Shown in pieces: positions 2,051 to 61,383 of a stretch of 64,000 bases of DNA. Both the position numbers and the translations under genes were made by a program. Source of the stretch: Todiramphus chloris collaris (lineage: Eukaryota; Chordata; Aves; Coraciiformes; Alcedinidae); contig JANVCC010000077.1 of assembly GCA_025345505.1 (NCBI GenBank), forward strand, positions 269,800-333,799, given 5' to 3'. Under the pieces are notes generated by a model. That model did not search any database. It saw only the letters and a program-made list of their open reading frames with translations, and was not told where the DNA came from. The first letter of the stretch is position 1; each line of letters begins with the position of its first letter.

Positions 2051-5000
2051 GGCCCGGCGCTGGAGGACAGCCTCAACACCCTCTTCGCCCCCCTCATCAT
2101 CTCCTGCGCGGCACTGCTGGAGAAGCTCGCCGACACCTATACCTGCTTCGCGACCGAACACGGGCGGCATCTCCACGTTCTGCACATGGTAGGGCTGGCA
2201 CCGGCACCGGGCACCGGCGTGTCCTGGCCGGCCCCCACCTGACCCCACTGCCGGTTGCAGTTTGGGGACTGCCTGTACATCGCAGTGAACGGGGACGGGA
2301 CAGAGAGCGAGGACGACCTGCGCCGGACGCTCTTCGTGCTGCGGCGCTTGGTGGAGGCTCACTGCGGCCTCATCACGCTCGACTCCCACCTCATCCGCAA
2401 GGAGTGAGCGGGCAGGGCCGGCCGGGGCAGGCTGGCACGCCGGGCTGCCGGGGCAGCTGCCCAGCGGTGCCTTCAGGCAGCCCTGGGGTGATGGGAGAGG
2501 GGATCTGCGAGCTGGGGACCCCGCTTTGCAGCAGGACCCGCTGCCTGCTGGGCTGCAGCTGGGTTTGAGGGGGCCCGTCTCACGCAGGGAGATGCTGGCT
2601 GGCTCTCGGCTCACACTCCGTGCCTGTTGCAGGTTGCGTCCAGCCGATTCGGAGCAGCGAGAGCGTGTCTGGAGCCTGCTGCGGGGTCTACTGGAGACCT
2701 ACAGCCGTCTGCGGGAGGAGGACCAGAGCTTTGCTGTGGAGGTACTGTGCCCCAGGGCGTCCCTTGCCTTCGGGGCTTCCCAGGGGTGTGGAGTCTCTGA
2801 ATGTGGGGAAGGGCTCTGGGACAGGGACTTCTGGGCAGGTCTCTGGAGCAGTGGAAGCTGGAACCTTCCCCCTGGGCTGTGTGGCTGCATCTGGGGGTCT
2901 CAGTGGCCTTCCCCCACACCTGCACCCCAGGCTGTGGAGCGACTGATTCACCCTCAGCTGTGTGAGCAGTGTATCGAGTTCCTGGAGCGGCAGGTGGTAC
3001 AGTACATCAACGCCAGCCCCGAGCGTGGTGGGGATGAGGTGGGCCATGCCTTCCTTCTGGTGCACACCAAGCTGCTGGCCTTCTACTCCAGGTGAGCCTG
3101 GCCCCAGCTCCACCACCCTCCTCAGGGTAGCCTCTCGCCCTCATGACTGACTCTTCCCTTCCCTGGCCTGCAGCCGCAACGCTAGCTCCATCCGCCCTGC
3201 AGACCTGCTCATCCTCATCCTCCTGGTGCAGGACCTGTACCCCAGCCAGATTGCTGAGGAGGAAATCAGCCCCCAGGTGCTCTAGAGCAGGGTGCCCCTG
3301 TAGGGTGATGCCTTAGCAGCCAGGGCTTCATTTTTTCCCCCTCTTTTCAAAGCTCACAACAGGGAAGGTGCCCCCTGAGGGACCCAAGAGAAGCGAGAGC
3401 ATCCCAGTGAGCAGCCCTGGCTCCCACAGCACTGCGGAGAAGGACTCAGATGACCAGGTGAGTCCCTGGGGTCAGGAGCTGCAGGGTGGGATGCTGGCTG
3501 GGCTGCCTGCATTGCTCCCATTGCTGACCCAGCTGTTCTTGCTGGCAGGACACAGATGATCTCTCTGTGTCTGAGGTTTACTACACACCCGAGCCCTCAC
3601 CAGGCGGGCACAGCATGGGTGAGTGCCCAGCCGGGCAGCAGCGCTACCCCATGCCCCCAAGCCCTGCTGAGGCTCCAGAGGCAGGTACGATGGTCTGTTG
3701 TGCTCCCTGCAGGCAGTGAGACCTGGTCGGAGGGCGCTGAGATGCTGAGCACTGGAGAGGCAGATGCTGCAGATGTCCAGGTGAGCAAAGGGTCTCACTG
3801 TCCCTCCTGGCTCCACACCCTGGGTCCTGGTACTCTTTGCAGCTGTGAGTGCCCCAGGCTTTAGGACAGGGGATGCCCCTGGCATCTGCTGTGTTGGGTG
3901 TAACCGTGTGAGGGCTCCTTCTGAGGCGTTGCTTATAGTCTCCCTGCCCAGAACTGTCAGCACAGAGAGGCTGGGGCTGCCTTGGAGCAGTCTGGTGTCT
4001 CCCTCTGCTGCCTCTGGGCTTTCTGGGCTGCTTCCCACTTCATCTCTGCAAGCGAGTGCTGGCTGCGATGTAAGAGGCCAACCTGTGTCTTTATAAACAG
4101 CTTCCCCTCTATCTGATGCTTTTTTGAGGTCCCTGGGCACATCCCTTGCTGCTGATCTTTTGCCACACAGCCTCTTCAGCTCTCAAGGTTCAGTCATGCC
4201 TGGTTGCAGCTTCAGGGCATTGCTGCATCACTTCAGAGCGTCTTGGGTCGGTGCAGCCTGTTTTGTCCCTTTGGGGAGGCTGAGTATCTCCGTTCTCTCC
4301 AGATGGCAGAGGACTTGCTGCAGACCTTGGGGCCTCTGGTCCCTGAAGCTTCAAACCCCAGAAGGATCTTTCTGGATGCCAACCTGCGGGAAGGTTACTG
4401 CCCCTTGCTGCCACACACCATACACTGCCTCCCTCTCTGGCCAGGCATCTCCCTCATCCTCCTGACCAAGGTAAGCTGCTGTCTCTAGGGTGAGTGAAGT
4501 GATGTTGGCCTGGGTCCTGGCTGATCCACCTCTCCCCTTCCTGGCAGGGTCCCACAACCCAGGTGGCTGTCACCTTGTACCAGCTGCTGGATGGGTTCTT
4601 GGTGCTGGAGAGGAAGCTGGAAGAGGGGCCAGAGGCAGGAGCCCCACGCTCCTACCCATTCCTGGTGGAGCTGCGGCAGCGCATGGACAAGTTTGTGAAG
4701 AAGCTGAGTGGGCAGGACATCCAGGTGAGAGTGGGGATGCAAGGACCCTCTTCTGCTGTCCCTACAGCCTGACACTGAGCCCTGTCCCTCTCTAGTTGCA
4801 GAACGCCTGGGCAGACTTCAAGAACAAGATATTTTCCCGGAGTGAGCCTGGGACCTCCCTGGAGTGAGTATGGGGTGGCCAGGGAAAGTACCTGGGGCAG
4901 GTGGGGACCTTTCTCAGTACTGGGGGTATCTGGGGGTGGCATGGCTGCCCCTGCAGTGCCAGGGACCCAGGAGCCAAACTCAGCACCGTCAATGTCTCCC

Positions 5001-52700: not shown

Positions 52701-55700
52701 GGGGCTCCTCTTCAGCAGTGCCGCTGCTTGGGCTTGGCTAATAAAAGGGGCCGTGACTGAGCCCTTCCCGGTGTCATTACCAGCCGCTGTGATCGTGCCT
52801 TCAGCAGCCCCCAGGGTCCCTGGCACCACTGATTAGCAGACACGTGGAAGCTTGTTCATGGCTCCTGTAAATTGTGGGGGTCAATTCCTCATTACCGTTG
52901 TGTGACATCTCCTTGCTTTGCATGTGGGGTAGAGGGGTCTGGTTGTCCACCAAGTGCAGGCACCTTGGGTGGGTGGAGGGCAGCAGTGTGGCAGGGAGAC
53001 CCTGGGGGGGTGGGGTGGGCTGGGGTGTGCCCTCCCGTCCTAGAGGGATGCAGCAGTGTTTGAAGATGGTGTTGTTGCTACACTGTTCAAACCCCCAAGA
53101 GCCAGACTCTCATTACATCCCTGTCACCCCTGCATGGAGCAGGCACATGAGGTGCTAACAGGCCGGGGACAGTCCCACCCCCCCATCCACCCTGCATAGC
53201 TACTGGGGCTCTCACCTCTTTACCGTGCTGCTGTGGGAGGGGACAGGTACTTCCCAGGAAGGTGCTCAGGACTGTAGGGCTGGCACTAACTCCCTGTCTG
53301 TGCTCACCAGGCTCATCCGCAGGGAACACTCAGACCCCATCATGGAAGAGCTGAATCCGGGAGATGCACTGGAGCCTGAGGGACGGGGCACGGGTGGGTC
53401 CCCCTGGCCCTGGCAGTGGGGCCCATGCTGGGGCTGTGCCACAGCACCACCTGGCACCCTCTGGGTCTGGGGATGCTGCATGCCTGGCCAAGTTACCTGC
53501 CTGCCCCCACCAGCATCCTGGAGCCCCCACCATCCAGGAGCAGCCCCGTGCTTTCTCCCTCCAGCCATACCCAGCTAATGGTGCTGCCTCCAATTTGTCC
53601 TCAGACCTTCACTCCTCAGGGGCTCCTTCCTGGATCCGTGCTGTTCAAAGCCAAACTCTCTATTTGGGAGTGGCCAGGCAACCTCCCATGTCTCATAGCC
53701 CCCCAGGCACTGCCTGTTCTGGGAGTTGACCACTTGCTTGCAGGGTGTCACCCATATAAGGACCCGTACTCCTGCACTGAGGTCACCCCATCTTCTCAGT
53801 TGCCCGAGCATTGCTGCCACTTGCAGGAGCCTACATCAAAAGCAGGGTGTAGTGCTGGGAGACATAGGGCCAGGACCCAGGCGTGACATGATCCTGTCCT
53901 TGCAGGGGGTGCAGTGACAGATTTTGATGGTGATGGGATGCTGGACCTCATCCTGTCCCACGGTGAATCCATGGCACAGCCAATCTCCATCTTCAAGGGC
54001 ACCCAGGTGAGTCAAGCAAGGCCCTTGCATTGTCCCTTTCCCTTCCACCTGTCCTTGTTCAGCTCGCCCTCTTCCCTCCTCCCTTGCAGGGCACCAGCAA
54101 TAACTGGCTGCGAGTCATCCCCCGCACCCGCTTTGGGGCCTTTGCACGGGGGGCCAAAGTGGTGCTGTTCACACGGCACAGCGGGGCCCACCTGCGCATC
54201 ATCGACGGGGGGTCAGGGTACCTCTGCGAAATGGAGCCCGTGGCGCACTTCGGACTGGGTGAGCTGGGGGGGCAAGGGACTGCCTCCATCCCCAACCTTC
54301 CCCAGCATCCCCCTGGGCAGGGGCCACCTCTGCTGCCCCAGTGCCGTGCAGCATGGTAGTCACCCGTGACCATTGCCCTGGGCATGGTGGGCTCTAGGGG
54401 AGGCTGCGGGCAGGGTACCCAGCCACGGCAGCCCTGCTGCAAGGGCAGCTGCCCCCTTCCCCACCTGCTGCTTTGCCCAGGCACCAGGCCTTTCCCTGTT
54501 TATTAACCCTCCCCTGGCTCAGCAGGGCTGGAAGCCAAGCCTGCAGGGGTGTCCCTGCCTGCTGACAGAGCATCCCAGCATCCTCAGTACACCCCGAGGA
54601 CTGACTGCATCCCTGCGAACGGGCTGTAGGCACAGTCACCTGGGGCCCGTCTCGGGGAGCAAGGAAAGGCTTTGCCCCTCCATCCCTACCACTCCCCTGG
54701 CCTCCTTTCAGCCCCTGCCTGCCCTGGAGACCCCCCCTCTGATGGGCTGCCCGCCTGCAGGGCACGACAAAGCCAGCAGCCTGGAGGTGACCTGGCCAGA
54801 TGGCCGCGTCGTTGTACGAGCTGTGGCCAGCAGTGAGATCAACTCTGTCCTGGAGGTCCCCTACCCCCTGGATACAGAGGAACCCCTCGTGCCTGCCCCA
54901 CTGGAGGTGAGGGACAGGTGTGGGTGCAGGGTGGGAGGCTTTGGGGGCAGGAACAAGGGGCTGGGCTCTGCTGTCTCTGGCTGCCCAGAGATGATTCTCC
55001 CCCATCCTGGTGGTGTCTGCTTCTCCCCAAATGCAGTGCGGGCAGGGATTCTCCCAGCACGAGAACGGACGCTGTGTAGGTGAGTGGCTGCTGGGGGCAT
55101 AGACATGCCTGCACCCGGGGTTCTGCAGCACAGCCCTAAGGGGTGCACAAAGGCAGTACCCTGCTGTGGGGAGGTGGCACCCAGGGAGGCTGCTGGGCAT
55201 GCAGGCACAGCTGCTGCACAGCTCAGTGATGGGTAAGGCTGCCTGCCCTGCATGTGGCCTGAGAACAAGGGTGGCAGCTCAGGTCTAGAGGGGGTCTGTG
55301 TTATTACAGGGAGTGGGGATAGTGCCGTGCAGGAGGCATGGCTGGCATGCGGTAGGCATCACACTAGTGCCATGAGCAATGGTGGGGCAGCAGAGGTGTG
55401 GCAGGGTGGCTGTGGACGTGCATGAGCCTCCTGGACAGAGGCATGGCTTGTGTGTGGCTATCTGTGGGGGGGTCATCCAGCATGTGCAGGGAGAAACTGA
55501 GGGGCCATGGCCAGCAGCCACAAGCTCACAGCTCAGCCATCTCACACCAAGGCCCCTCTGCTTGCAGACATAGACGAGTGCACAGAGTTCCCCTTTGTCT
55601 GTCCGCGGGACAAGCCTGTCTGCTTCAACACCTACGGCGGGTACCGCTGCCGCAGCAACAAGCGCTGCAGCCGAGGCTTTGAGCCAAATGAGGATGGCAC

Positions 55701-58700
55701 AGCTTGTGTGGGTGAGTGATGTCAAGGATGCCCTGATCCCATGCCACCTCAGCCTGGCGAAGCCAGTGGGCAGCAGCCCCAAAGCACTTGGATGCTGTTG
55801 CACCCCTGCCAAAGGCCTGGTCATGTCCTGCAACTTGCCAGGTGGCCGCCCAGCCACCTCCACCCTGGCTCCATAGCTGTTCACCCTGTGCCTCCTGCTG
55901 AGCCGCCACTGATTCCCCTTTTCTCTCTCTCTTTTTCTTTCTTGCTCCTTCTCTGTGTAGCTCAAGTGGCCTTTTTTGGGGGATACCCCTCTGCTGGGAG
56001 CTGGCCCAGGCCCCCCCCCAGTGCTCTCCTCCTTCTAGTCCTTGGACTCTGCCTTTGTGTCTATGCACTTTAACCCCTGCCCATAACATGCCAGAGCAGC
56101 CTTGGTGGAAGGACCAGACGGCTTCTGCCTGTCTCTCTTTCTCTCTCTTTCTCTCCATGTCAAACTGCCTGGAAGTGCCGGCTGTGCCCTGCCAGGGCGG
56201 CCCGTGATGGGATGGGCTTGGAACCCCACTGCCCCTTGCACCATGTCTGGGAAAGCAGCCCCGGGGCAGCACCCCTTCACTGGCACCCCCTGCTCCTGCC
56301 CTGCCCGTACCTCCCAGGCAGCTGCTTGCTCCGTCGCCTTGATACTGTACCATGTGCCTGCTGGTTTGGCCTGCGACGTGTGTGCTTCGTTTGCCCCCTC
56401 CTTGGTGATGGGAACCCCTCTCCCCAGCCTTGGCAGAGGAGGAGGACCCTGGCCCTGAAGAGGAAGGACCCTCCTGGTCTGTTTTTTAATGTATTGACCC
56501 TACTGTTTGGAGTCAGACCCTACTCAGTCTTCCAGCCCCTCTCCTGGAACCCCCCCACTGAATAAACTATATCCTGTCTATTAGTCTGGCCTGCTGCGCT
56601 GTGTGGGGCAGGGCTATGCCCATCCTTCTGCCCACTCTGCCCCAGGGCTGTATGAGGAGGCAGCTTGGGGATGGGGAACACGCCCAGCATCCCTCAGTTC
56701 TCCCTGCCTCAGGGACACGAGCTGGCTGGAGGGTGCACAGCAGCCCTGGGCAGCTCTGCCCCTGCCCAATCCTGCTTCCAGCTGAGGGGACACAGCCAGA
56801 TGTGCAACACCGGAGGGGCTGGGGTGCATCAGGCAGCCCTACACAGCAACAGGGCTGTGCTGCCTTCCCCCAGTGCACTGTAACCCTGTGCCACTTTCTT
56901 CCCCACCACCAGATATCGACGAGTGTGCCCAGGGCTTGCACAACTGCAGCCAGCTTTGCACCAACACCCCTGGGGCACACTCCTGCCACTGCCGCCCGGG
57001 CTTCAGTCCCCTTGATCCTGCTGCCAGACAGTGCGTGGGTGAGTACCTGCAGGCAGCGGGGCTGGCAACCCCCAGTGCCCACCCACCCACTGCTGCCAGG
57101 CACAGCCATGCTGCCCTGGGAGCAGAGGTGCTGTCCCCTGGGGTGCCCTGTTGTGCTCACAGTCCTGGTCCTGGCCAACCCAAAACATGGGGGTCAGAAT
57201 GGACAGAGTGCGGCTGCGCAGGAGTTGATGGAGTGAACCCAGCAGACTCTGCTATAAACGCTGACAGGCATGGGTGATGCCTTCATCTCCCAGCTTCCCT
57301 CAGCCCAGACCTGCCCCATGTTCCCTCCAACCCCTGCCCTACCTATGCCAGGTGAGTCCCATGTTCCTGGTGCATCTCTGACCCTCTCCCCTTCTTTTCC
57401 AGACGTAGATGAATGCCAGGCACAGCCTGGCCCCTGTGACCATATCTGCCACAACAGCCACGGCTCCTTCCACTGCCACTGCCACCAAGGCTTCTCCCTG
57501 GGTGCAGGTGGGCGCTGCCGGAAGAACTAGCCTGTCCCAGTGCAGCTGGGTGCCCCCTGCTGCCCCCTGATCACCCCCGGGCCTGTGCTGGTTGCAGCCA
57601 GTGCCGACAGAATAAACCCTTTCCTGTGCAGTTTTCCTTGTGGGTCCCTGTCACTGGGGCCACATGACTGCTACACAGGTCTGTCCCCATCCTGCCATGG
57701 ACTGTCCCATCCCTCCCCTTTATTTCCCCTGATGTTCACGCTCCTTGTGGGGGTCCACGCAGCCTGGTGTACTGGGGGATGCACAGCCCAGTCTGCTTCT
57801 GCGCCCTCCAGCAGCAACCCACTCTCCCCTCTGACATAGGAGGACAAGGGATAGACAGCAGAGTATGAAGCATGGGGTTTATTGAGGAAGGTCTCCATGC
57901 AGGGGGGCCCCAGCGGGAAGGGTGGGGTGAGGGCCACCCCGCACACATCACATGACTGAGCCAAAGAGTCCCACAGGGCAGGGTCCTCCCTCCAGGACCC
58001 TGGGAGAGCAATACCAGCTCTGTTCAGCCCTGCATTCACAGGGGGTTTCTTCTCCTCAAGGTGCTGGATGTCACAGGGACCCTCTTATTTCCCCCCATCT
58101 GACCCTGGCCCATGAATCCCCACACCTTGCAACTTGGCCCAGATGCCCCTCGAGGTCCCCGCCACATGCCAGACTGAGAATGGGGGTGCTGGTGGCAGGC
58201 GCATGCAGGATGTGTGGGCAGGGTAAGGCTCAGCAGCAGGAGAGGTGCTGCTCTCTCAAGCACCCTCTCAGCAGAGCAGGCTGGGGGCTGCTGGCATCCA
58301 GGAGCAGGCAGGGACTGGGCAGGGAGTCCAGCTCGCCCATGCGACAGCTCAGCCTCCACTATACTGGGCAATGTATGAGCCCAGGGCAAGGCTGCCCCGT
58401 GCCATCTCCCTGCCCTGGGCATGGAGCTTGGGAGCTTTCTGGGTCGGGCTGGGGATGTCACTGTATCAGGCAGGGAGCAGGAACAAGTGCTCAGTGTTGT
58501 GGGCAATGCTGGAGGATGCTGCTAGCGAGGATGTTGCTGCCAGATGGGTGAGGACATTTGGGCATGACTGGAGAGCAGCAACGGGCAGCTGTAGGGCAGG
58601 GCTGGGGTGAATGCATGGCACCATCATGCAAATGAAGCAGCACCAGGACTCTGCCAGGCACCGTGGGCAGTGGGCACACAGCAGCTGAGCCCATCCTGCA

Positions 58701-59306
58701 GCACCAAGACCAGGACACCTCATGGAGAGGGTGCAGCAAGGGCTTACAGGGCACATGAGTGTGTGCCCTCCCCTTAGCACTGCCTAAGGCTGTGCCGGTC
58801 CTGCTGCTCCTCGATGCTCGGCATGCAGGGTGCTGCCAGTTGAGGCTGCCCATGGCAGGCTAAGCTCCTTTGTTTGTGGCAGGGGCAGCAGCACCAAGCA
58901 CCTGGGGAGAGCTGCAGGAGCCCCTTGGCACTAGATTGGCTCAGTGGGAAGCACCTGGGATGTCCCAGCAACAGCCCCTGCCCACAGTGGATCTGAGAAG
59001 GGGCAGCGTGACTGCAGAGGGCACAGAGCAGAGGAGGGTGGGCAGCCCTGCTGGGCAGCCCCCAGCCTCTCCCTACCACCTGCCCTGGGCTCAGAAGCGA
59101 GTGCTCTGGTAATGCAGTCTGCGGAGCTCGGAGAGGCCACTGTCCCGGCAGTACAAGTCCCTGCAGGGACTCCCTGCCAGTCACCGGCCCCCCGCCCCAC
59201 CCCCACCACTGCTGCTGCTGGAGCTGCCACTGCTGGAGCTGCCACTGCTGCACCGGTCTTCATAGATGGAGATCTCAATCTGGACCTTGCTAAGGATCAT
59301 CAGTGA
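43733..59306 (+). CDS. CRTAC1: Cartilage acidic protein 1 (LOTUS), long form
   Basis: Common exons: 43733-43777, 47633-47829, 49057-49253, 50178-50308, 50939-51095, 51706-51840, 52141-52286, 52475-52611, 53311-53393, 53906-54006, 54090-54258, 54761-54906, 55037-55079, 55568-55711. Spliced to 59167-59306 they give 656 residues (human 661). A signal peptide ([15 protein letters not shown]) is followed by an FG-GAP/VCBS propeller with calcium loops ([45 protein letters not shown]), an UnbV/ASPIC domain ([21 protein letters not shown]...[18 protein letters not shown]) and a cbEGF domain ([12 protein letters not shown]...). The protein is secreted or surface-bound and is reported to antagonise the Nogo receptor. 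The start is uncertain: exon 1 reads in frame, adding 18 residues before the exon-2 Met at 47642. Every splice after the EGF exon is phase 1, so several 3' ends are compatible. The final exon lies antisense within GOLGA7B. Confidence 0.92.
43778..47632 (+). other. CRTAC1: CRTAC1 intron 1
   Basis: 3.85 kb between exon 1 and the signal-peptide exon. It holds only the TGATGTCA cluster. No other exon or repeat was recognised. Confidence 0.5.
44715..44905. repeat. Cluster of TGATGTCA-like octamers in CRTAC1 intron 1
   Basis: TGATGTCA (44721), TGATGTCG (44783), TGACATCA (44868, the reverse complement) and several AATGTCA variants occur in under 200 bases. It may be a degenerate minisatellite or a cluster of CRE/ATF-like sites. 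Confidence 0.4.
48115..48180. promoter_or_regulatory. AT-rich patch in CRTAC1 intron 2
   Basis: GGTTAATTGGC and TTTTTTATAGCCCTTTATTGG stand out in a GC-rich 1.2 kb intron. The last motif has a CArG-like look. Function is unknown. Confidence 0.25.
49345..49970. promoter_or_regulatory. Candidate conserved elements in CRTAC1 intron 3
   Basis: Two patches stand out: 49350-49400 (GAGTTAATTTCTC, CCATTGATTGATGG) and 49780-49965 (CCCAATTACCCGG, TCAATCGATTTTTC, CCTTAATGAGTTGATTC). They have the composition of developmental enhancers, but no exon signal is present between 49254 and 50177. Confidence 0.3.
50520..50640. promoter_or_regulatory. Candidate conserved element in CRTAC1 intron 4
   Basis: AGCTGATAAACG, GTGATTTATGTTACTGTCACC and CCAAATGATTATCACTAAATCAGG lie around a long pyrimidine tract. 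It differs in composition from the flanking CG-rich intron. Confidence 0.3.
51455..51580. promoter_or_regulatory. Candidate conserved element in CRTAC1 intron 5
   Basis: GGTAAATTGTCACTAATCGG, GTCAGTGATTAGGG, GGAGTAATACC and CCCAATTAGTTCC occur within 125 bases. The TAAT cores repeat at roughly 40-base spacing. Regulatory function is inferred. Confidence 0.3.
55961..56073 (+). CDS. CRTAC1: CRTAC1 alternative 3' exon encoding a hydrophobic tail
   Basis: After the EGF exon (ends 55711, phase 1), the acceptor TGTGTAG at 55960 opens a frame reading [15 protein letters not shown]... and ending in a hydrophobic segment ([17 protein letters not shown]) before TAA at 56071. From memory, a human short isoform ends in a closely similar AQVAFLGGYSSA... 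sequence finishing LQLYAL, which supports the exon as real. With the common exons the product is 647 residues. The terminal hydrophobic run with nothing after it is compatible with a GPI-anchor signal, which fits a membrane-bound form; that is inference. A very strong pyrimidine tract precedes the acceptor, and the exon has its own poly(A) signal at 56561. Confidence 0.85.
56561..56566 (+). terminator. CRTAC1: CRTAC1 short-form poly(A) signal
   Basis: AATAAA lies about 490 nt after the TAA of the hydrophobic-tail exon. It is the first of two plus-strand signals that must be bypassed to make the longer CRTAC1 forms. Confidence 0.75.
56913..57038 (+). CDS. CRTAC1: CRTAC1 additional calcium-binding EGF exon
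   Basis: This is a symmetrical phase 1-1 exon with a CAG acceptor at 56912 and gtgagt donor at 57039. It encodes [16 protein letters not shown]...[13 protein letters not shown]...QCV: six Cys in EGF spacing and the D-I-D-E-C calcium-binding start. It can splice in frame from 55711 and on to either 57403 or 59167. I do not recall it in the human protein, which has one EGF domain. The exon could belong to no other gene, as no start codon, signal peptide or promoter is near. Confidence 0.75.
57403..57530 (+). CDS. CRTAC1: CRTAC1 terminal EGF exon with stop
   Basis: The CAG acceptor at 57402 opens in phase 1 to a third EGF-like unit, [16 protein letters not shown]...[19 protein letters not shown], then TAG at 57528. 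AATAAA follows at 57611-57616. Spliced through 56913-57038, the product would have three EGF domains and 694 residues, lacking the Ala-rich tail. Splice signals, phase, cysteine spacing and poly(A) signal all agree, but expression was not tested. Confidence 0.75.
57611..57616 (+). terminator. CRTAC1: CRTAC1 three-EGF form poly(A) signal
   Basis: AATAAA lies about 80 nt after the TAG of the terminal EGF exon, with a GT-rich sequence next. It is only about 260 bases from the opposing GOLGA7B signal. Confidence 0.75.
57878..57883 (-). terminator. GOLGA7B: GOLGA7B poly(A) signal (minus strand)
   Basis: TTTATT on the plus strand reads AATAAA for GOLGA7B, about 1.3 kb beyond its stop codon. The 3' UTR would then cover 59180-57860. 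No other minus-strand signal is obvious in this stretch. Confidence 0.7.
59167..59306 (+). CDS. CRTAC1: CRTAC1 canonical last exon, antisense to GOLGA7B
   Basis: The acceptor CTGCAG (59161-59166) opens in phase 1 to [19 protein letters not shown]..., then [18 protein letters not shown] and TGA (59304). Human CRTAC1 as I recall it ends with the same Thr/Pro then Ala-rich block followed by APVLVDGDLNL. The Ala-rich run carries potential O-glycosylation sites. The exon contains the whole last coding exon of GOLGA7B (59181-59279) on the other strand and the branch site of the GOLGA7B intron. No clear poly(A) signal for this form was found in the following kilobase. Confidence 0.88.
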
Positions 59307-61383
59307 GATAGGCTAGCCCAATTGCCCAGCACCCATTCCCAGTGTCCCAACCCCTCCTCACCCTTGTCACCCTCCCAGCATCCCACTGCCCAGAGGATAC
59401 AACCCTCATGCCACGCTCCAGAGGGTCAGTAAGTAGCAGCCCCCGTGGCGCATAGATCTTTTCATTCTGCTCCTGGATGTACTTGGAGATCTTCTTCAGG
59501 ACCTGCTGGCACATGAAGGGACACTTAGGTCCTGTCAGCACTGCTGTCTGCTCCCTGTGCCATCTCTGTGCCCAACACCAGGCCTGCAGTTATGCCCATC
59601 CCTGAGCCCTCCCCTGGACCTCAGAACCTTCTCATAGTGCGTCTCCATGCAGAGGAAGATGAAATAGGCAGTGGCGCAGGCCAGGCACCCCTCCAGGTAC
59701 GAGCTGCCTCCAATCTTCTCCGCCTCAGCATAGAAGCCATTAAGGGTTTTCACAGTTTCCTCGAAGAGCTGCCGCTCAATCTAGAGCAGAAATTGAGGTG
59801 AAAAGGAGTTTGGCCAGAGGCTGACCCCCTGCACTGCCCTCTCTCCATCCCCTCTCCTCCCTGCCCAGCTAATGCCTCATTTCCCTGGCCCTGCCCACCT
59901 CCCACCCATGCCAAGACATGCTGAGCCTGCAGCCACTAACCAGAGCCTCCTGGTCCCAAGGAACACCCAAGCCCATGCAGACCAGGTAAGGTGGCTGTGA
60001 TTGCATGCAGCCAGTAGCATCAGCTGCCCTAGGGCCATACAACACCCCGGGGGGTCCTCATGCCTTCATGCGTCCCTCCCCCTTGAACATCCATAGGGCA
60101 CCAACATAGGGCAACCTGCACCCTGTCAGCCTGCCAGGCTCCCTACCCGGCTCTCCAGCTCAGGGGGGAACTTTGTCTGGAATTGGCACGTGGTCCCGTC
60201 GCTGTAATCCCGCTGCACGAAGACCTTGGTGGCCAGGGATGCGCTGCGCCGCAGCTCCTGCAGACTGTGCACCTGGGGGGAGCAGGGTGAGGCCGGGGGT
60301 GGTGCAGCTGGCATTGCTGGGCATCCTTGAAGGGGGCTGTGAGCCCAGGGAGCAGTGCCATTCCCCCAGCGTCAGGGGCTGCAGGCTCTCACACCCCACA
60401 ACAGGAAGTTCCCAGCACGGTCTGTGTCATGCCGTGAGCACAGCTGGGCACTGAAGGTGCGAGGCCAGGGGCGAGGGGAGGATGCCGAGGCAGGTCCCGG
60501 CTCGGAGCATAGGCAAATAAACGCATGTTATCCCTGCCGCGGGCTGCCGCCTGGCCTCACCTGCACCGGCTGCCGCACGCGTGGGTGTGTGTCCCCCGGT
60601 GAGCCCCGCAACCCCCCTGTCCCCAGCAGCGCCCCAGCACACAGCCACCGCAGCACCTCCCAGGCAGGGGGAGGGAGCGAGCCGAGGAGAGCAGGGGCCC
60701 GGGCAGCACGTCTGCGGCGGCAGCGCAGCGGGCAGCAGGCTGCAGCGGGGCGGCTGCACAAAAGGGATGGCAGTCCGGGCCGCAGGCGCTCCGCTCAGCC
60801 CAGCTCCGCCAGCCCTGACACCCCACGGGGGACAAAGGCCCACGCCAGCTCCCCCAGATGTGGGGCAGCTGTGAGGGGCCGGAGAGGAGGATGGAGGGGC
60901 CAGCTATGGGTGTAAGACCCCTCCCTGCACTTCCCCTTGGGTGACATGGGGCCACCGCCTGCCGTGTGCCCCACAGCACCTCTGCCCCCATCAAGGGTCC
61001 CCCCCCACGGTATCTGGAAGACGGACCCCCAGCCCCACAGCCACCCCCTCTACCGGGGCACCCTACCCCAGCCCCACACTGCTTCCTTCAACAAGGACAC
61101 ATGGCAACCCACCCCCTACCACCCCATCCCTCCCGGCATGCCACGTGCCCTTCTGTACACACGGAGCACGCACCCCTCACAGTCCCCAGCCCCACACAAC
61201 CCTCCCGCCCCCCAGTAACCCCCGCGGAGCCCAGCCGCGCACCAGCCCCCAGGAATCCCCTTCCCCCTTCTCCCTCCAGCCGATGCCGACGGGCAGGGGA
61301 GGGCAGAGCGAGGGGCTCCGCAGCAGCCCGGCACCGGGAGCTGCCACACCGTTCCACGGCCGCGCACCTACCTCCGTGGCCAT
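59181..61383 (-). CDS. GOLGA7B: Golgin A7 family member B
   Basis: Five coding exons on the minus strand: 61383-61372 (MATE only), 60272-60147, 59780-59628, 59502-59401, 59279-59181. All junctions are phase 0, giving 163 residues (human about 167). The product reads [20 protein letters not shown]..., then [20 protein letters not shown], a cysteine-rich membrane-associated segment [34 protein letters not shown] and [10 protein letters not shown] with a Ser/Gly-rich tail. GOLGA7 proteins are palmitoylated accessory subunits of DHHC acyltransferases; GOLGA7B has been linked to ZDHHC5 at the plasma membrane. The start is set by the conserved MATEVH N-terminus in a CpG island. The last intron looks U12-type, and the donor of exon 3 (AAG|gttctg) is unusually weak. 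Confidence 0.94.
59280..59400 (-). other. GOLGA7B: GOLGA7B last intron, U12-type GT-AG
   Basis: On the minus strand the donor is GTATCCTCT (59400-59392), against the U12 consensus GTATCCTTT. TCCTTAGC (59296-59289) lies about 11 nt before the acceptor AG (59281-59280), close to the U12 branch consensus TCCTTAAC at the right distance. No pyrimidine tract is present, as usual for U12 introns. The branch site and acceptor lie inside the CRTAC1 coding exon on the other strand. Confidence 0.8.

Follow-up and report, generated by a model that had tools for sequence, protein, structure and literature searches.

Predicted alternative last exon of CRTAC1 in antisense codon register with the last coding exon of GOLGA7B in the genome of Todiramphus chloris collaris

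The window, by which we mean the whole 64,000-nt stretch of DNA that was analysed, carries the 3' part of CRTAC1 on its plus strand and the complete coding sequence of GOLGA7B on its minus strand; both are genuine protein-coding genes, and they run toward each other. GOLGA7B comprises five coding segments, which together encode 163 amino acids with a single stop, at the end. The first segment (61372-61383) encodes MATE and is followed by exon 2 (60147-60272), exon 3 (59628-59780), exon 4 (59401-59502), and a last coding exon of 32 codons plus TGA (59181-59279). The donor after exon 3 (59620-59627, minus strand) reads GTTCTG, a poor fit to the consensus. The encoded protein matched the Pfam Erf4 family (E = 5.6e-35; 120.3 bits, cut-off 29.3) and thus carries the GOLGA7/ERF4 family domain, and its residues 14-144 aligned to a solved chain of GOLGA7, its paralogue. 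The solved GOLGA7 chains share the motif VIEI(S/T)IYEDR with GOLGA7B, GOLGA7 itself reading VIEITIYEDR. A PDB search with the GOLGA7B tail alone returned one chance match (E = 4.6), and a search for GOLGA7B relatives in viral_contigs and genome_contigs yielded 4 and 45 pattern stretches, respectively, none of which was confirmed as a relative.

The plus-strand gene was identified from an UnbV_ASPIC domain (2.1e-11) and three exons with calcium-binding EGF domains. The part from the ASPIC domain to the first EGF exon (55568-55711; EGF_CA, 1.4e-14) aligned to the solved CRTAC1 chain 9etn (1.3e-84), the alignment stopping at the end of that exon. The names CRTAC1 and GOLGA7B given in the preliminary description of this DNA are therefore borne out by both Pfam domains and PDB matches. 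A run of 400 N at 1326-1725 marks an assembly gap.

The first EGF exon is the common 5' partner of three possible CRTAC1 ends in the window, and the donor phases fit each of them. From the donor at 55711, the transcript could continue into the predicted last exon of form B (LOTUS-like; 55961-56073), into two further EGF exons, or into an exon at 59167-59306; the last of these can be joined either directly to 55711 or after the second EGF exon (donor 57038). The form-B exon encodes a hydrophobic C-terminus and is followed by AATAAA at 56561; a long pyrimidine tract precedes its acceptor. The second and third EGF exons lie at 56913-57038 (EGF_CA, 2.4e-11) and 57403-57531 (EGF_CA, 1.8e-10), and the third ends in TAG at 57531, followed by AATAAA at 57611. 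A single EGF-like domain is given for human CRTAC1 (PMC10477339), whereas the gene in the window has these two extra calcium-binding EGF exons; the three-EGF end may be a lineage-specific third CRTAC1 terminus. Poly(A) signals of the two strands face each other in this region (plus-strand AATAAA at 57611; minus-strand AATAAA at 57883 and 57724), and if form A were absent, the genes would meet approximately tail to tail, their exons overlapping slightly or not at all.

The exon at 59167-59306 is predicted to serve CRTAC1 as an alternative last coding exon (form A, similar to human exon 15A). It begins in phase 1, has an open frame that ends at a TGA stop (59304-59306), and wholly contains the last coding exon of GOLGA7B, read on the minus strand from 59279 to 59181. 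All 33 codons of 59181-59279, the stop included, pair as codon-on-codon complements between the strands, so that the positions, strands and exact codon register claimed in the preliminary description proved correct. Translation of the minus strand gave 32 residues, and translation of the plus frame from 59169 gave 45 residues. Bases 59167-59168 complete the codon split at either donor, and both joins (55711 to 59167 and 57038 to 59167) produce a single open frame through to the form-A stop; both genes have open frames across the shared bases, each in phase with its upstream exons. The GOLGA7B stop TGA corresponds at 59181 to a plus-strand TCA (Ser), and the CAG of the GOLGA7B splice acceptor corresponds at 59280 to a plus-strand Leu codon. 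A 15-bp tandem repeat (59215-59250; 2.4 copies, 100% matches) underlies a Ser/Gly run on the minus strand and an Ala/Thr/Gly run on the plus strand. By eye, the predicted form-A tail is Pro/Thr/Ala-rich and non-hydrophobic, and it ends in DLAKDHQ. The sole plus-strand AATAAA past the form-A stop in the window (60516-60521) is 1.2 kb beyond that stop and within GOLGA7B intron 1; a form-A transcript ending there would therefore be antisense to GOLGA7B exons 2 to 5.

Two terminal exons of human CRTAC1 have been described, 15A without and 15B with a transmembrane domain; form A was assigned to cartilage and lung and form B to brain, and 3'RACE of mouse brain and articular cartilage recovered form B only (PMC4945026). 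The preliminary description took the exon at 59167-59306 for the last coding exon of a long form of CRTAC1. The open and correctly phased frame agrees with that assignment, whereas its use as a CRTAC1 exon remains a prediction in the Todiramphus genome and the mouse result speaks for form B.

The effect of the register on the two proteins was evaluated by going through every single change that the 32 sense codons of the overlap allow, 288 in all. Changes at GOLGA7B position 2 altered both proteins in 96 of 96 cases. At position 3, 60 of the 96 changes were silent in GOLGA7B and altered CRTAC1, 30 changed both proteins, and 6 introduced a stop in one of the frames. Position 1 showed the reverse pattern: 84 of 96 altered GOLGA7B and were silent in CRTAC1, with 8 changing both, 2 introducing a stop, and 2 silent in both, the last being the only doubly silent changes in the entire set (2 of 288). 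This count supports the earlier statement that the two proteins share second positions and that the synonymous sites of one face the first positions of the other. The further statement that each C-terminus constrains the other was not supported.

We evaluated whether the open plus frame exceeds chance expectation. For the protein that GOLGA7B encodes, the probability that the aligned antisense frame is free of stops is 0.36 at the gene's GC3 of 0.77 and 0.093 at a GC3 of 0.5. The other GOLGA7B exons served as controls: the aligned antisense frame contained no stops in the 42 codons of exon 2, none in the 51 codons of exon 3, and one in the 34 codons of exon 4. A second plus frame is likewise open across the overlap, and the plus frame of the CRTAC1 exon is open from 58935. 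Since the frame would often be open by chance and was open in two of the three control exons, its openness is no evidence, and the argument that an open frame proves coding was rejected. We were also unable to demonstrate avoidance of TCA, the codon that creates an antisense stop: it was used for none of the 13 Ser codons of the tail, but also for none of the 8 in the remainder of GOLGA7B. Codon avoidance in the tail was rejected as evidence because these Ser codons are too few and too repetitive.

For comparison with human, presumed sequences of both tails were used. We take the human CRTAC1 tail to be 56 residues after the EGF cysteine, and the presumed human pair shares 36 sense codons, compared with 32 here. 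The presumed CRTAC1 length equals that of the segment printed for human in PMC10477339, in which the 661-residue form is described as having a low-complexity, O-glycosylated tail of 56 residues. When the presumed CRTAC1 tail was set against the reversed presumed GOLGA7B tail, 37 of 37 positions were complement-compatible at one offset, the next best offset reaching 28 of 37; none of 20,000 shuffles reached 37 (maximum, 28). The complement rule that the preliminary description had proposed for the human proteins thus held on the presumed letters, and, if these are right, this is a lead, backed by a good internal consistency, that the human coding exons would overlap in the same register. A literature search of main texts for the presumed tail peptides gave no match.

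The similarity between the bird and presumed human CRTAC1 tails was greatest in a ten-residue block, in which 8 of 10 residues matched by eye; the differences (F/L and I/V) fall at positions that are silent in GOLGA7B, in its E and Y codons. The ten GOLGA7B residues facing this block correspond to IEITIYEDRG in GOLGA7, with 8 of 10 identical and a ninth differing as S/T. Because the paralogue carries nearly the same residues, GOLGA7B explains the likeness of the block. Outside the GOLGA7B exon, ungapped comparison by eye matched none of the 7 residues past the Leu at 59280 and 2 of the 4 (T and Q) before the Ser at 59181, so that the similarity of the CRTAC1 tails extends over roughly the length of the GOLGA7B exon. 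Conservation of the overlap between birds and mammals, suggested in the preliminary description, consequently does not support the CRTAC1 side: little of the likeness reaches beyond the GOLGA7B exon and its acceptor CAG, and GOLGA7B is conserved on its own account. Two random synonymous codings of the ten GOLGA7B residues shared at least 8 antisense residues with P values of 0.011 to 0.061, depending on GC3, and a random coding shared at least 8 with that of the window with P values of 0.010 to 0.032; these values treat silent sites as fully saturated between bird and human and so overstate the case against a passive tail. The 8 of 10 identity is somewhat above neutral draws, which could reflect incomplete saturation or splicing signals.

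The acceptor at 59167 scored -2.2 (the 78th percentile of all AGs) in a simple scheme with assumed weights, compared with 1.3 to 10.0 for six other predicted CRTAC1 acceptors. However, the last acceptor of GOLGA7B itself (59279) scored still lower, at -2.7, so the weak score at 59167 is not decisive. An in-phase CAG/G, with its AG at 59165-59166, sits at the spacing predicted by the presumed human junction VG/TxxQSP (the slash marking the junction). AG occurs at 4960 positions of the 64,000-base plus strand, which corresponds to a chance of approximately 8% of finding one at a given place. The AG at the presumed human spacing and the fit of the presumed human tails look like more than chance if those human sequences are right.

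In our judgment, these observations are best explained by an alternative secreted tail of CRTAC1 that was overprinted on an older GOLGA7B exon and is used in human and perhaps here, with constraint coming mainly from GOLGA7B; we assign this a probability of roughly 0.55. GOLGA7B would be the older and dominant reader of the shared DNA. CRTAC1, its convergent neighbour, would pass over the terminal exons closer to it and join the donor at 55711 (or 57038) to the antisense of the last GOLGA7B exon. Where form B has a hydrophobic, membrane-bound tail, the resulting form A would carry a Pro/Thr/Ala-rich, potentially O-glycosylated secreted one. The sequence of this tail would be dictated by the GOLGA7B codons and splice acceptor; CRTAC1 would need little beyond an open frame, and the constraint would thus be mainly one-way. 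The motif shared by the solved GOLGA7 chains points to GOLGA7B as the older frame, and one-way constraint is suggested by the majority of third-position changes, which are silent in GOLGA7B and alter CRTAC1, the F/L and I/V differences being of that kind. We infer that the form-A exon is homologous between human and the Todiramphus genome and that it is used here. Against this explanation stand the two nearer CRTAC1 termini with their own AATAAA, the weak acceptor, the distance of 1.2 kb to the form-A AATAAA, and the recovery of form B alone in mouse.

A rival reading is one in which the predicted form-A exon is not spliced in here and CRTAC1 ends as form B or as the three-EGF form, the openness of the frame and its likeness to human being forced by the GOLGA7B protein, codon bias and the triplet repeat. 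This reading ranks close behind the overprinted tail, and we regard it as a serious possibility at somewhat below even odds. It accounts for an antisense frame that is equally open in GOLGA7B exons 2 and 3, neither of which is proposed as a CRTAC1 exon, and for a likeness to the presumed human tail that stops near the edges of the GOLGA7B exon. It also agrees with the complete nearer termini (AATAAA at 56561 and 57611), the weak acceptor at 59167, the detection of form B alone in the mouse tissues tested (PMC4945026), and the precedent of the Rev-erb-alpha antisense strand in platypus and birds (PMC4569393). Counting against it, an in-phase CAG/G acceptor lies where the presumed human junction places it, outside the coding part of GOLGA7B; the weak score is compatible with use, the last GOLGA7B acceptor being weaker still; and the 8 of 10 identity is slightly more than neutral synonymous coding would give (P values from 0.010 to 0.061 across the methods and GC3 settings).

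A stronger form of the overprinted-tail explanation, and hence one whose probability overlaps with it, is that both tails are functional across amniotes and that each limits the other. The shared second positions, the scarcity of doubly silent changes, and the presumed human pair, which obeys the complement rule at all 37 positions, are in its favor. We nevertheless consider it unlikely, as form A was absent from mouse 3'RACE (PMC4945026), the likeness to the presumed human tail was poor outside the GOLGA7B exon (0 of 7 and 2 of 4), and TCA avoidance was not demonstrable; the observed asymmetry argues against strong constraint from CRTAC1. A related and tentative proposal, which we rate as somewhat improbable, is an amniote-wide dual-coding exon: 59181-59279 would have encoded both C-termini in perfect codon register since before the bird-mammal split, making it older than the mammal-only TRalpha2/Rev-erb-alpha overlap, and growth or shrinkage of the triplet repeat would have resized both tails at once. 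The exon might also start further upstream, at 59095, where an in-phase acceptor scores -0.6 compared with -2.2 and from which the plus frame is open; this is very unlikely, because the presumed human junction fits 59167 and the 24 residues that a start at 59095 would add have no known counterpart.

Overlaps between coding sequences on opposite strands are rare and disfavored in animals. In one study, they made up 51 of the 615 overlaps between different strands in human and 28 of the 497 in mouse (PMC2335118), and they are reported to be strongly underrepresented in the metazoan genomes of a second study (PMC2330155). The proteins concerned here are CRTAC1, a secreted or membrane-bound neural/cartilage protein, and GOLGA7B, a palmitoylation cofactor. 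If true, a codon-aligned case shared by bird and human would provide a clean test of how far a second frame can be constrained. It also serves as a warning: with codons paired in this way, a conserved protein on one strand makes the protein on the other strand look conserved as well, and similarity between tails is therefore no proof of a gene.

Among the closest known systems is the human pair itself, CRTAC1-A (exon 15A) and GOLGA7B. These two genes are stated to overlap in human (PMC10477339), and a pig annotation table places CRTAC1 at 14:109,223,293-109,390,691 and GOLGA7B at 14:109,210,866-109,225,153, an overlap of approximately 1.9 kb for which the table gives neither strands nor exons (PMC11594135). 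Among the matches listed in our main-text search, which included papers naming both genes, we found no description of a codon-for-codon overlap of their coding sequences; we suggest, as a weak statement, that it was not previously described. In its register, the overlap belongs exactly to the frame 0 class of antisense open reading frames, in which stops arise solely opposite sense CTA, TTA or TCA (PMC11266595); the frames of that report are from yeast and fly, whereas the present frame would be reached through splicing out of CRTAC1, an established gene of vertebrates.

The arrangement most similar in kind is that of TRalpha2 (THRA) and Rev-erb-alpha (NR1D1), likewise convergent genes in which an alternative last exon of one lies over the terminal coding exon of the other; the overlap affects both C-termini and involves a splice variant of one gene, while the partner's protein shows strong conservation (PMC4569393, PMC3047299). 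The two systems are likened here in their gene arrangement, and they differ in that one frame of the CRTAC1/GOLGA7B overlap is a low-complexity, triplet-repeat tail. TRalpha2 has been reported in mammals only, being undetected in opossum and lacking the necessary elements in platypus (PMC4569393, PMC3047299), whereas the CRTAC1/GOLGA7B arrangement would, provided that the presumed human tails are correct, be present in human and in this bird. The antisense strand of Rev-erb-alpha in platypus and birds nevertheless translates into a sequence closer to eutherian TRalpha2 than marsupial sequences do, with no stops in platypus (PMC4569393); such a ghost-like frame in animals without TRalpha2 is a direct warning for the present case. 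CRTAC1/GOLGA7B would be a new, and possibly older, example of the kind known from TRalpha2 and Rev-erb-alpha.
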